Assembly (NCBI RefSeq): GCF_019216885.1
Contig: NZ_JAAQRC020000001.1
Location: 1,860,001 to 1,924,000, forward strand
DNA: 64,000 bases
Source: Methylobacterium sp. SyP6R
Lineage (GTDB): Bacteria > Pseudomonadota > Alphaproteobacteria > Rhizobiales > Beijerinckiaceae
Reading direction: 5' to 3'
This document shows, piece after piece, positions 4,884 through 38,666 of this stretch. The number at the start of each line of letters is the position of its first letter. The stretch's first letter is position 1. A program made the position numbers and the translations under genes. The notes beneath the pieces were generated by a model that was not told the DNA's origin, did no database searches, and worked only from the letters and a program-made list of their open reading frames with translations.

Positions 4884-5126
4884 ATGGCCAACGACCTGAT
4901 GCACGACGTGTTCGGCGGCGAGCGCAACCTGACCACCAAGGAGCGCGCCATCTCGGTCGTGCTCGGCCTCGGGCTGGCCGCGGCGGCGGCGCAGCCCCGG
5001 CCGAACAAGTTCCTGAGCCTCGCGGCCCTGGTCGCCGGCTCGCTCCTGGCGATCCGCGGCGCCACCGGCCATTGCGCCGCCAAGTCGCTGATGAACAGCG
5101 GCTCCCACGAGCCGGCGCGGATTTGA
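4884..5126 (+). CDS. DUF2892 (YgaP-like) small membrane protein
   Basis: An 80-residue protein with two hydrophobic segments (AISVVLGLGLAAAAA, residues about 22-37, and FLSLAALVAGSLLAIRGATG, about 43-63) and the GHCAA motif after the second. This is the pattern of DUF2892 inner-membrane proteins. The function of the family is not established; some members are fused to rhodanese domains. The ATG at 4884 follows GACGGAGACC, giving a GGAG site. A terminator follows immediately at 5133. Confidence 0.75.
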   Translation: MANDLMHDVFGGERNLTTKERAISVVLGLGLAAAAAQPRPNKFLSLAALVAGSLLAIRGATGHCAAKSLMNSGSHEPARI

Positions 5127-35512: not shown

Positions 35513-35800
35513 TCAGAGACCCGCGGCCTTGCGCAGGGCGGCGTTGATGCGTTCCTGCCAGCCCGGCCCGTCCTCCTGGAAGTGGTCGAGCACGTCGCGG
35601 TCGAGGCGCAAGGACACGGTCTCGCGCACGCCCGGGACGGCCGCCTTCGCGGCGGGCTTCGGCTTGCCGTCGGTCGCCTTGCCATCGGCTGCCTTGCCCT
35701 CGGGGCCTGAGCCCTCCGGCACTTTACGGGTCACGGCCCGGAACGCGGCCTCGGCGGCTTGCCGGGGGTCGCTGCCGCGGCGGGAACGGTCGAATGACAT
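35513..35800 (-). CDS. BrnA-family antitoxin-like protein without a BrnT partner
   Basis: A 95-residue protein: a charged Lys/Pro/Gly-rich N-terminus, then the BrnA-type ribbon-helix-helix core (VRETVSLRLDRDVLDHFQEDGPGWQERINAALRKAAGL). BrnA normally pairs with the RNase BrnT encoded just upstream. Here the upstream DNA is the 423-bp repeat array, and no BrnT is present. It may be an orphan DNA-binding regulator. GAGGAGGACCC upstream of ATG 35800 is a strong ribosome site. The open frame also extends upstream through the terminator into the first repeat (to GTG 35986). Confidence 0.8.
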   Translation of the reverse strand: MSFDRSRRGSDPRQAAEAAFRAVTRKVPEGSGPEGKAADGKATDGKPKPAAKAAVPGVRETVSLRLDRDVLDHFQEDGPGWQERINAALRKAAGL

Positions 35801-35845: not shown

Positions 35846-35882
35846 AAAACGACGAAGGCCCGCCGGCGCACCGACGAGCCTT
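35846..35882 (-). terminator. terminator-like stem, repeat unit A
   Basis: The 28-base block 35855-35882 is identical in all three units. On the minus strand it folds as AAGGCTCG...CGGGCCTT with an inner CGG/CCG. Here a TTTT follows (complement of 35846-35849). Confidence 0.7.
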
Positions 35883-35926
35883 GAGGAGGCAGGGTCCACG
35901 TTCCAGGGTTTGCGGGTGGTCGTGCA

Positions 35927-35962
35927 CGGTACGTTGATGATGGCCGTCTCGGCCCCGTACCG
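35927..35962 (-). other. conserved two-part hairpin, repeat unit A
   Basis: CGGTACG/CGTACCG form the outer stem and GGCCG-TCT-CGGCC the inner stem. All stem bases are invariant across the three units. The only differences fall in the 8-base internal loop (here TTGATGAT on the plus strand). Confidence 0.65.
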
Positions 35963-35985
35963 CATGTCAGCCCGCCCTGAAGCCA

Positions 35986-36072
35986 CTATCCCTGTCGATC
36001 GACATTCGGTGGCGTTTCCTGGTCACCGGCATCGGTGTGAGTCGCATGAGGGCTGCAACCTTGAGAATTCAT
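35986..36072 (-). CDS. 28-residue peptide gene, repeat unit A
   Basis: ATG 36072 to TAG 35986 encodes MNSQGCSPHATHTDAGDQET followed by PPNVDRQG. GAGGAGG lies five bases upstream of the ATG. The peptide is hydrophilic, with one Cys, two His and several acidic residues, and has no signal peptide. Relative to unit B it differs at three bases, all synonymous third positions. The function is unknown and I recognise no family; a regulatory leader or a free small protein are both possible. A GTG overlapping its stop (TAGTG) opens a second short frame beginning ASGRADMRYGAETA. Confidence 0.75.
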   Translation of the reverse strand: MNSQGCSPHATHTDAGDQETPPNVDRQG

Positions 36073-36102
36073 GGCCACCTCCTCGAGTTCGTCTCGATGA
36101 AG

Positions 36103-36134
36103 ACTATGCTGCGCCTCCCGGCGAGAGTGGTCAA
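36103..36134 (-). promoter_or_regulatory. promoter-like block, repeat unit A
   Basis: On the minus strand, TTGACC (36129-36134) is followed after 20 bases by CATAGT (36103-36108). An A/T-rich stretch lies upstream. Both hexamers are invariant in all three units while the spacer varies, but a 20-base spacer is longer than usual. Confidence 0.5.
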
Positions 36135-36277
36135 GCGGAATTCGTAGCCGACTGCTCTCGATTTTTAAGGTTGAGATGGAACCTAACGAAAGATTAATAC
36201 TTCTGACGCCTGAAGCCGATTCGGCCTTTCGCTGCGGCATGAGGCAGGTAAGGGCTTGCACAAGGCCTATAACAGCG

Positions 36278-36305
36278 AAGGCCCGCCGGCGCACCGACGA
36301 GCCTT
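36278..36305 (-). terminator. terminator-like stem, repeat unit B
   Basis: Identical 28-base stem block to unit A. The base run after it on the minus strand is CGCTGTTA, a poorer T tract, so termination may be weaker here. Confidence 0.55.
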
Positions 36306-36349
36306 AAAGAGGCAGGGTCCACGTTTCAGGGTTCGCGGGTTTTGCCGCA

Positions 36350-36385
36350 CGGTACGATGATGACGGCCGTCTCGGCCCCGTACCG
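36350..36385 (-). other. conserved two-part hairpin, repeat unit B
   Basis: Same outer CGGTACG/CGTACCG and inner GGCCG/CGGCC stems; the internal loop reads ATGATGAC on the plus strand. Confidence 0.65.
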
Positions 36386-36408
36386 TAGTTCAGCCCGCCC
36401 TGAAGCCA

Positions 36409-36495
36409 CTATCCCTGTCGATCGACATTGGGTGGCGTTTCCTGATCGCCGGCATCGGTGTGAGTCGCATGAGGGCTGCAACCTTGAGAATTCAT
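36409..36495 (-). CDS. 28-residue peptide gene, repeat unit B
   Basis: It encodes exactly the same 28 residues as unit A, through three synonymous codon differences (Gly GGT/GGC, Asp GAC/GAT, Pro CCG/CCC). GAGGAGG sits at the same distance. The GTG overlapping its TAG opens a 27-codon frame (ASGRAELRYGAETAVIIVPC, then GKTREP) that ends at TGA. Confidence 0.75.
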   Translation of the reverse strand: MNSQGCSPHATHTDAGDQETPPNVDRQG

Positions 36496-36525
36496 GGCCA
36501 CCTCCTCGAGTTCGTCTCGATGAAG

Positions 36526-36557
36526 ACTATGCTGCGCCTCCCGGCGGGAGTGGTCAA
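36526..36557 (-). promoter_or_regulatory. promoter-like block, repeat unit B
   Basis: TTGACC (36552-36557) and CATAGT (36526-36531) with a 20-base spacer, as in unit A; the spacer differs from unit A by one base. Confidence 0.5.
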
Positions 36558-36700
36558 GGGGTATTCGTAGCCGGCTGCTTTCGATTTTTTAGGTCGAGAC
36601 GGAACCTAACGAAAGATTAAAGTTGCCCACGCCCGAGACCGATTCGGCCTTTCTCTGCGACATGAGGTGGTCGGTGCCTGCCGCCGGGCTCGAAACGACG

Positions 36701-36728
36701 AAGGCCCGCCGGCGCACCGACGAGCCTT
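36701..36728 (-). terminator. terminator-like stem, repeat unit C
   Basis: Same invariant 28-base stem block. On the minus strand it is followed by CGTCGTTTCG, a modest T tract. Confidence 0.6.
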
Positions 36729-36772
36729 GAAGAGGCAGGGTCCACGTTTCAGGGTTCGCGGGGTGTTTCGCA

Positions 36773-36808
36773 CGGTACGATGGTGATGGCCGTCTCGGCC
36801 CCGTACCG
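36773..36808 (-). other. conserved two-part hairpin, repeat unit C
   Basis: Same stems as units A and B; the internal loop reads ATGGTGAT on the plus strand. Confidence 0.65.
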
Positions 36809-36831
36809 TATTCTAGCCCGCCCTGAAGCCA

Positions 36832-36918
36832 CTATCCCTGTCGATAGTAGTCCGGCGGAGTTTCCTGATCACCGGCATCGGTATGTGTCGCGTGAGGGCT
36901 GCAACCTTGAGAATTCAT
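36832..36918 (-). CDS. 28-residue peptide gene, repeat unit C
   Basis: The first 22 residues are the same as in units A and B despite six third-position differences from unit A. The end reads DYYRQG instead of NVDRQG. GAGGAGG is retained five bases upstream. Protein-level constraint across an otherwise diverged copy is the best evidence that this frame is translated. Confidence 0.75.
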   Translation of the reverse strand: MNSQGCSPHATHTDAGDQETPPDYYRQG

Positions 36919-36948
36919 GGCTACCTCCTCGAGTTGGTCTCGACGGGA

Positions 36949-36980
36949 ACTATGCTGCCCCTCCGCGCGGGGATGGTCAA
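36949..36980 (-). promoter_or_regulatory. promoter-like block, repeat unit C
   Basis: TTGACC (36975-36980) and CATAGT (36949-36954), again 20 bases apart. The spacer differs from unit A at six of 20 positions while both hexamers are unchanged. Confidence 0.55.
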
Positions 36981-37122
36981 GAGGGATTTGTAGCCGCCTT
37001 TTTTGCACTGCCGCGCTGGAACAAAAACCTAAGGGGAGGTTTCGGGCGCGCCCGAGCCAGCGCGGTCCCGCCCGCCGCCGCGGGAGGCGCGCCGAGGATC
37101 AGGCCGAGGATCAGGCCGAGGA

Positions 37123-37611
37123 TCAGGCAACGTGCAGGATGGCGTCCTTCATCACCCGGGCGACGACGTCGCAGTTCAGGGCGCTCGCGGCACAGTGGGT
37201 CACCTGCCGGTCGAGATGGTCGTGGTCGAGGCGGGGGTCGCAGGCACTCGCCAGGAAGTAGCCCGCATCCGTGATGCTCATCACGTAGACGTCCGAGGCC
37301 TGGCCGGTATTCCGGTTGATCAGCATGAACTGGGTGTAGGCCTGCTCGAAATCGGGACGGCCGCGCAAGGACGGCCCGCGCTCGATGAGCACGCCATAGG
37401 GCGCGAGCTGGCTGGCTGCGGCCTGCAGCACCTCGGCGGCGATGTCGCGCAGGAGAGCGACGCGTCGTGCGTCCTCGGAGGAGAGCGGCGCCTCGTCCTG
37501 GGCGGCCGGCGCCACGTAGGCCTCGCGGCGCCGGCGGTGCTCCTCGAAGAAGCTCCCGAAATCCGACAGCACCACGTCCGGGCATCGGGGAACCGCCACG
37601 GTCTCCGTCAT
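37123..37611 (-). CDS. hypothetical protein
   Basis: A 162-residue soluble protein of no family I recognise. Its parts are VVLSDFGSFFEEHRRRREAYVAPAAQ, a helix with RVALLRDIAAEVLQAAASQLAPYG, and a C-terminal alpha/beta part (FMLINRNTGQASDVYVMSITDAGYFLASACDPRLDHDHL, CAASALNCDVVARVMKDAIL). The AAGGAG site upstream of ATG 37611 supports the start. It lies between the type II secretion genes and the repeat array, transcribed toward the array. A link to secretion cannot be shown. Confidence 0.6.
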   Translation of the reverse strand: MTETVAVPRCPDVVLSDFGSFFEEHRRRREAYVAPAAQDEAPLSSEDARRVALLRDIAAEVLQAAASQLAPYGVLIERGPSLRGRPDFEQAYTQFMLINRNTGQASDVYVMSITDAGYFLASACDPRLDHDHLDRQVTHCAASALNCDVVARVMKDAILHVA

Positions 37612-37766: not shown

Positions 37767-38666
37767 TCAGGGAGCCGATCCCAGGGCCGCCGCCACCAGC
37801 GCGCAGGCGGGGTGACCGGTGCCGGCGACGAGGTCCGCCGCGACGGTCTGCTGCCAGACGAGGAAGCCGCTGCCGCCGCCGAGGTTGAGGATCGCCGAGC
37901 GCCCGGCCCGGGCGCGGCCCGCCTCGACGACGACCGAGAGGCGGAAGACCTGCCGGGGCGACGGGACCGGGCCGGCGGAGCCCGGCAGCGAGCGGATCGC
38001 CGAGGGGTTGGCCCGCCGCACCAGGGCGGCGAGGTCGAATCGGCCGCCCTCGTTGTAGACCGTCAGCACCGGTCGCAGGCGGGCGGCGATGGCGGGCGTC
38101 ATCGAGGGCAGGCGGTCGATCTCGTCGATGCTGGCGAAGGGGGCGTTGCGCGGCCCCCAGGGCAGGCCCCGGGCGCGGTATTGCGGCAGTTCCGCCCCGC
38201 CATTGGGCTCCGGCGCGTCGTCCGGGTCGCGGTAATCGACGATCTCGGCGCCGAGCGCCAGTGCCTCCCGGTCCGACACCCCGAGGAGCCGGAAGGCCTC
38301 CTCCATCGCCGGGCGCGGGCTGCCGTTGAGGTCGATGAGCGTGCCCTGGTCCTGGAGCGACAGGAGCGCTCTGCGCCCCGGCGCCAGCGGGCAGGCGGTC
38401 ACCGTGCCGTCCTCCGGCAGGCCGGCGCTGGACTGGCGATAGGTCCGGCCCAGATCGAGCCGGTAGGCGATCAGGCGGGCGATTCCGTCCGCCTCGCCCT
38501 GGAGCCGCACCGCCTCGGCCCGGGCCTGGGCGAGGCCGGTGGCGGAGCGCACCTGGAGGATCGCCGCCGCCAGCACCGCACCGACCACGATGAAGATCGC
38601 CAGCACCGACAGGAGCACGAAGCCGGCCTCGCCCTCGTCGGAGGGGGGCTCGCCCGGGGCGCTCAC
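37767..38666 (-). CDS. gspK: type II secretion minor pseudopilin GspK
   Basis: A 299-residue protein with a pseudopilin N-terminus (EGEAGFVLLSVLAIFIVVGAVLAAAIL; the residue before F is Gly, as required for prepilin peptidase). The large GspK-type insert domain (LIDLNGSPRPAMEEAFRLLGVSDREALALGAEIVDYRDPDD, SIDEIDRLPSMTPAIAARLRPVLTVYNE) identifies it. GspK caps the pseudopilus tip with GspI and GspJ. GTG 38666 overlaps the gspJ stop by four bases. It is the last gene of the minus-strand pseudopilin operon. Confidence 0.93.
   Translation of the reverse strand: MSAPGEPPSDEGEAGFVLLSVLAIFIVVGAVLAAAILQVRSATGLAQARAEAVRLQGEADGIARLIAYRLDLGRTYRQSSAGLPEDGTVTACPLAPGRRALLSLQDQGTLIDLNGSPRPAMEEAFRLLGVSDREALALGAEIVDYRDPDDAPEPNGGAELPQYRARGLPWGPRNAPFASIDEIDRLPSMTPAIAARLRPVLTVYNEGGRFDLAALVRRANPSAIRSLPGSAGPVPSPRQVFRLSVVVEAGRARAGRSAILNLGGGSGFLVWQQTVAADLVAGTGHPACALVAAALGSAP

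Follow-up and report, generated by a model that had tools for sequence, protein, structure and literature searches.

Arrest and leader peptides, among them SecM, TnaC and ErmCL and the proline-codon leaders mgtL/mgtP, act as sensors, and to our knowledge arrest peptides occur as cis leaders. Dual-function small RNAs such as SgrS/SgrT, Spot 42 and RNAIII carry a small ORF (open reading frame). A third system for comparison is the PPX sites that depend on elongation factor P (EF-P), described by Elgamal et al. (2014, PMC4140641). According to the excerpts of that paper used here, PPD and PPN were confined, among the PPX sites of E. coli cells without EF-P, to the well-defined pausing set; strong pauses besides those at PPG and PPP carry a polar A-site residue; pause strength is modulated by residues up to three codons upstream, and by some further away; and in such cells a strong pause occurs at only 2.8% of the PPX sites. 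The same excerpts mention secM, TnaC and ermAL1.

The locus analysed here lies in a 64,000-nt stretch of DNA from Methylobacterium sp. SyP6R (referred to as the window) and is built of small repeated units. Like the arrest and leader peptides, the unit has a short ORF in which constraint is strongest beside the last residues before a putative stall, and an RNA structure that would lie at the ribosome's edge; unlike them, it has no conserved regulated gene downstream, it possesses its own promoter-like pair and terminator, its stop codon is inside the RNA element, and it occurs in tandem copies. Like SgrS/SgrT, Spot 42 and RNAIII, it is apparently a stand-alone transcript with an ORF and a structured RNA, but the constraint profile of its peptide is not that of a free protein. 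As at the EF-P-dependent PPX sites, its Pro-Pro is followed by Asn or Asp and upstream residues matter; the sites in the excerpts of PMC4140641, however, are incidental ones inside proteins, whereas here a whole mini-gene seems to be built around one.

The array occupies positions 35855-36980 of the window on the minus strand and consists of three units of 423 bp (Table 1). A repeat search of the window found a 300-nt block three times at a spacing of exactly 423 nt, with 100, 92 and 86% identity to the reference copy, which confirmed the identical spacing described in an earlier note on this DNA. Copies beyond these three were not found in the strain's own genome, either by DNA search or with a covariance model. 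Each unit has a promoter-like pair, GAGGAGG as ribosome-binding site, a frame of 28 codons, a 3' part with structure and a terminator-like stem of 28 nt that is identical across all three units; the GAGGAGG, the frame and the stem of each block had been reported in the earlier note and were all recovered on the sequence. The silent-only differences that it claimed also held, since the frames starting at 36495 and 36072 differ at three silent sites and the first 22 codons of those starting at 36918 and 36072 differ at six. Its promoter pair, TTGACC...CATAGT, was retained in the first hexamer only: CATAGT sits 20 nt past TTGACC in the window units and is probably not the -10 box, because the relatives share, as judged by eye, the hexamer CAGCAT 17-18 nt past TTGACC. 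A simple scan found no sigma-70 site in the array, and the last of the three stems was the sole one that it scored as terminator-like. Just past the last unit lies a gene for a BrnA-type antitoxin (Pfam BrnA_antitoxin, E 2.7e-14; window 35516-35800, minus strand), and just upstream of the units lies a gene for a protein of 162 residues that matched nothing in Pfam or NCBIfam (window 37126-37611, minus strand); among predicted genes, a relative of it precedes the unit in a number of same-clade loci.

Table 1. Features of the three units. Positions are those of the window; for each ORF the higher number is the first base of the ATG and the lower one the end of the stop codon.
Unit	Feature	Positions	Strand	Details	Basis
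1	Promoter-like pair	36952..36980	-	TTGACC-17-CAGCAT	Sequence; same pair in relatives
1	ORF	36832..36918	-	28 codons, MNSQGCSPHATHTDAGDQETPPDYYRQG; GAGGAGG at 36924-36930	Family-wide coding selection
1	Pro-Pro codons 21-22	36853..36858	-	Pause motif PPD with codon 23 (pause predicted)	Pro-Pro in 95/95 units
1	RNA element P1-loop-P2	36735..36840	-	CAGGG AUAGUG ... GUGGA CCCUGC; stop codon in internal loop	
1	Terminator-like stem	36701..36728	-		Sequence
2	Promoter-like pair	36529..36557	-	TTGACC-17-CAGCAT	Sequence; relatives
2	ORF	36409..36495	-	MNSQGCSPHATHTDAGDQETPPNVDRQG; GAGGAGG at 36501-36507; Pro-Pro codons 36430-36435	
2	RNA element	36312..36417	-	P1 = 36413-36417 with 36313-36317	
2	RNA element, parts		-	Loop strand 36407-36412 with UAG; P2 arms 36397-36406 and 36323-36332	
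2	Terminator-like stem	36278..36305	-		Sequence
3	Promoter-like pair	36106..36134	-	TTGACC-17-CAGCAT	Sequence; layout as in unit 2
3	ORF	35986..36072	-	Peptide as in unit 2; GAGGAGG at 36078-36084; Pro-Pro codons 36007-36012	
3	RNA element P1-loop-P2	35889..35994	-		
3	Terminator stem and T-rich tail	35855..35882	-		

The unit is a gene family, which is present in most of the Methylobacterium species checked. A DNA search of 99 genomes found relatives in 19, counting the strain's own, and all 19 belong to the same genus. The exact pattern CAGGGRTAGNGG-N67-97-GTGGMCCCTGC matched 51 stretches in the named-species collection, 49 of which are in Methylobacterium, Methylorubrum or one Methylobacteriaceae MAG; the two records outside the family (L040 and L058) have no ORF and were rejected as relatives. 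Across the order the same pattern was found in 3 of 397 genomes, again all of the same genus. The covariance search that the earlier note had proposed was run with a model built from 27 of the pattern-found units, and of the 111 genus genomes it matched 82, the best E being below 1e-11 in every one of these; in the other 29, no convincing copy appeared even with laxer filters (best E 0.012). Among 298 genomes drawn from the GTDB family the model matched 37, of which 16 were strong matches of the same genus and 21 were others with E above 1e-4. The best of these 21 other-genus matches had an E of 1.5e-4, the four that were read (L124, L125, L126 and L129) are without the CAGGG-stop element, and they were rejected as relatives. 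Convincing matches are confined to the genus among the genomes searched. Genomes with the family have one to three copies, and the unit is not special to the triplicate analysed here.

Two variants of the unit were observed. A short form that lacks the middle hairpin occurs in seven genomes (L111-L117); on a contig of one of them (G042), a second unit, cut by the contig end (L115:1-57, minus strand), faces away from the short-form unit, which shows that a divergent pair of units can fit into some 400 bases. A diverged subfamily in four genomes (L118, L119, L120 and L121) encodes 27 residues of the form ...RTDxGDADDPPNxxRQG followed by a UGA stop, and keeps the spacing from Pro-Pro to P1 despite a one-codon difference upstream. 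A search with a diverged unit as query gave strong matches in no genomes but the four of its subfamily; in the 29 unit-less genus genomes, its best matches (E of 7e-4 and weaker) were short, and several fell on the terminator stretch.

The earlier note had assigned the peptide to no named family, and this agrees with the database searches: the unit 2 peptide, the one family member scanned, hit 0 families in Pfam and NCBIfam, and the window had no Rfam match above the gathering score (three scores below the threshold in the region, with E from 1.6 to 4.7). A search of the plasmid collection with the window's unit likewise gave no match. This last result speaks against a type I toxin-antitoxin unit or a mobile repeat, which we regard as highly improbable; the small ORF, the tandem copies and a gene context that differs between clades would suit such an element, but the known type I toxins are hydrophobic membrane peptides and the 95 peptides analysed below are strongly hydrophilic (GRAVY -1.16 to -2.11).

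The tests were performed on 95 distinct units; the pattern that collected them required CAGGG, CCTGC and an ATG that is in frame and accompanied by a ribosome-binding motif. When the pattern was checked on 54 loci, the covariance model recovered five units that it had missed, all with CAGGG and Pro-Pro. Two of these (L134 and L152) have GUAGA in the 3' loop strand and one (L164) has AUGGA there, one (L159) has a G-U pair in P1, and the last (L162) has PPH and then TAG at codon 24, with the loop stop lost, and is perhaps a decaying copy. Peptide length in the 95 units is 28 residues in 87, 27 in four, 29 in one, and 23, owing to an in-frame TAG, in three.

To what extent the unit stands alone was judged from its neighbours and its upstream sequence. 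Neighbouring genes, taken as ORFs picked and clustered by a simple script without annotation, differ from clade to clade, and in 14 of the 15 loci with a common upstream gene family (MSNHGIFP/MSDHG-type peptides) the next downstream predicted gene is on the opposite strand. The units were thus not found directly upstream of a regulated gene conserved with them, as a cis leader or attenuator would be. That the unit controls a downstream gene in this way is suggested by its layout, since a pausing ORF with a hairpin and a terminator resembles the classical attenuators, and in the window the BrnA-like gene follows on the same strand; but the variation of neighbours between clades, the opposite strand of the following gene and the separate promoter-like pair and terminator-like stem of each tandem copy all count against it. 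We rejected this reading on the synteny of the script-derived genes and consider it very unlikely. Promoter-like patterns, chosen after inspection of the sequences, were sought in the 94 units with enough upstream sequence. A pair was present in 68 of them (TTGAC...CAGCAT in 32, CTTGNNN...CTAG in 33 and CTTG...CCTACC in 3) and was not recognised in 26; 24 of the latter belong to the MSNHGIFP-like clade, and autonomy is therefore least supported there.

The 28-codon frame is coding, but the constraint on it rises toward Pro-Pro and ends one residue past it. In 45 disjoint pairs, pN/pS over codons 2-23 was 0.39 in frame versus 1.64 and 1.48 in the shifted frames. A parsimony codon test on a tree of the same 95 sequences gave an omega of about 0.86 for codons 2-9, 0.44 for codons 10-16, 0.18 for codons 17-23 and 0.83 for codons 24-25, the difference between the last two windows being clear (Fisher p = 5e-9). 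At Pro21 and Pro22 together, parsimony over the 95 units counted 20 silent changes and no replacing change. The codon CCA encodes the first Pro in 69 of the 95 units, compared with a share of 2.8% among the Pro codons of 290 genes predicted on the fetched loci, a bias that could alternatively be an RNA constraint. Codons 27-28 (CAG GGR) are fixed in all 95 units; CAGGG was part of the collecting pattern, but it is likewise present in the five units that were recovered independently of that pattern.

The main rival to the reading that we prefer is an ordinary microprotein, in which a released hydrophilic peptide acts in trans through the conserved stretch D-Q-D-x-P-P-N/D while the hairpin and the terminator only stabilise the mRNA. 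The clear coding selection, the strong ribosome-binding site and the multiple copies in some genomes are consistent with it; however, constraint stops at the A-site residue of the pause motif, residues 24-25 evolve freely, codons 2-9 are almost unconstrained, and the final three codons look conserved as RNA. Premature stops exist as well: an in-frame TAG at codon 24 is present in three of the 95 units and in L162, one of the five missed by the pattern, and a unit with this TAG is the only copy found in two genomes (G133 and G046). The earlier note had itself named stops in the 28-codon frame of homologues as evidence against its proposal, and judged from the sequence the TAG at codon 24 would be easier to reconcile with a pausing nascent chain than with a complete peptide of 28 residues. 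We hold a microprotein to be rather unlikely. The proposal of that note, an undescribed peptide gene or dual-function small RNA kept in multiple copies, survives in so far as the unit is a translated small gene and a structured RNA, with coding selection, a covarying stem and one to three copies; it does not survive as to the selected object, which is not a 28-residue protein, constraint being confined to about codons 10-23.

At the point where constraint peaks, Pro-Pro is followed by Asn in 47, Asp in 46, Ser in one and Gly in one of the 95 units, that is, by Asn or Asp in 93; in the five further units the residue is Asn or Asp in four and His in one. On sequence, the family has Pro-Pro together with a strong-pausing residue of the EF-P-dependent PPX motif, and Pro-Pro-(Asn/Asp) is likely a ribosome-pausing motif here. 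Pro-Pro is most often preceded by Thr (55 of 95 units), which the excerpts of PMC4140641 do not name as an enhancer. A nascent chain that pauses the ribosome is what we propose as the reason why constraint fades N-terminally, peaks at Pro-Pro-N/D and vanishes thereafter, and why TAG at codon 24 is tolerated.

The RNA element begins within the last codons of the ORF and consists of two helices, P1 and P2, separated by an internal loop with the strands AUAGNG and GUGGM. P2 covaries: it scores 0.290, shuffles gave 0.131, and none of the 500 shuffles scored as high as P2; 90.7% of its cells are paired versus at most 50.5% when the arms are slid, and in 58 distinct arm pairs 7.69 of 10 positions pair between own arms versus 5.98 +/- 0.15 between swapped arms. 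Of five measures of covariation, four were reached by 0 of 500 shuffles; the remaining one, which counts pairs with changes on both sides (5), was reached by 58 of 500. P1 (CAGGG:CCCUG) is invariant in the alignment and shows no covariation, its CAGGG arm being fixed by the collecting pattern. Predicted folds contain P1 in 49 of the 95 units when folded from P1 onward, in 39 when folded from the ATG and in 35 when the whole transcript is folded; L111 and L012 are predicted to fold without it. The stop codon in the loop is UAG in 90 units and UGA in four, and in one it is replaced by TCG and a subsequent in-frame UGA. Counted from first base to first base, P1 starts 15 nt after the second Pro codon in 95 of 95 units, including the four 27-codon forms. 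By the size of the footprint, 15 nt corresponds to about the leading edge of a ribosome that has the second Pro codon in its P site; this fixed spacing alone is weak evidence, because little length change occurs anywhere in the ORF.

Between the two conserved strands the gap is 76-91 nt, or 35-37 nt in the short forms. With this variation one would not expect a conserved frame downstream, and stop-codon readthrough was rejected. The idea that the Pro-Pro codons pair alternatively with the UAGNGG loop strand found no support either, as the loop base (U, G or A) occurs with CCA and CCG in most combinations. A further alternative is that the unit is a regulatory small RNA that acts through P1-loop-P2, either by binding a protein or ligand or by base pairing of the conserved CGUGGACCCUGC strand, and that translation of the ORF only tunes its stability. 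The conserved P1 arms and loop, the covariation of P2, and the promoter-like pair and terminator stem point in this direction; nevertheless, amino-acid selection at codons 17-23 is strong while silent change is free, which an RNA-only role leaves unexplained, and the middle of the element is variable and is missing in the short forms. We consider this alternative quite unlikely.

The reading that we prefer, to which we give a little less than an even chance, is that of a small mRNA that is autonomous and whose peptide, while still nascent, makes the ribosome pause next to an element acting as an RNA switch. The family, the varying neighbours, the constraint window, the invariant Pro-Pro, the fixed spacing, the covarying P2 and the stop in the loop are read from the sequences themselves; to these the reading adds transcription as a unit, the pause, its EF-P dependence, the folding of P1 and the output. 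Each unit, some 250-270 nt long, would be a gene equipped with a promoter and a terminator of its own, and between them with a strong ribosome-binding site, the tiny ORF and the RNA element. The pause would occur when D-Q-(D/E)-x-Pro-Pro occupies the tunnel and the A site holds Asn or Asp, and its length would be set by EF-P or by the supply of Pro-tRNA. With the leading edge of the paused ribosome at the first base of P1, the P1-loop-P2 hairpin could form ahead of it, whereas a ribosome past the pause would reach the stop inside the P1/P2 internal loop and open the hairpin. The fate of the stand-alone RNA (its stability, its processing or the binding of a partner at the loop) might then report the cell's capacity to translate Pro-Pro.

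In its strictest version this would be a free-standing sensor, whose sole translated product is the pausing nascent chain, in which the pause gates the stop-containing hairpin, and in which the fate of the RNA reports EF-P or Pro-tRNA status in trans and not to a cis gene; this version we regard as unlikely, and the unit may be an undescribed kind of translation-sensing RNA. If it is true, translation would be sensed here through a new layout, namely a genus-wide gene that apparently comprises a pausing ORF, an RNA element and nothing else. The reading is easy to test, since EF-P dependence, pause position and RNA fate are each measurable, and we suggest that constraint windows ending at PPN or PPD could serve as a search handle for similar genes among unannotated small ORFs.

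Two further features of the window were recorded. The only tRNA called in it by ARAGORN is a 95-base tRNA-Pro with anticodon AGG at positions 4985-5079 on the minus strand, an unusual call that is possibly a false positive. Several ORFs on both strands between positions 37767 and 42502 have prepilin-like N-termini (GFTLVE..., GFSLVE...), which suggests type II secretion or pilus genes.
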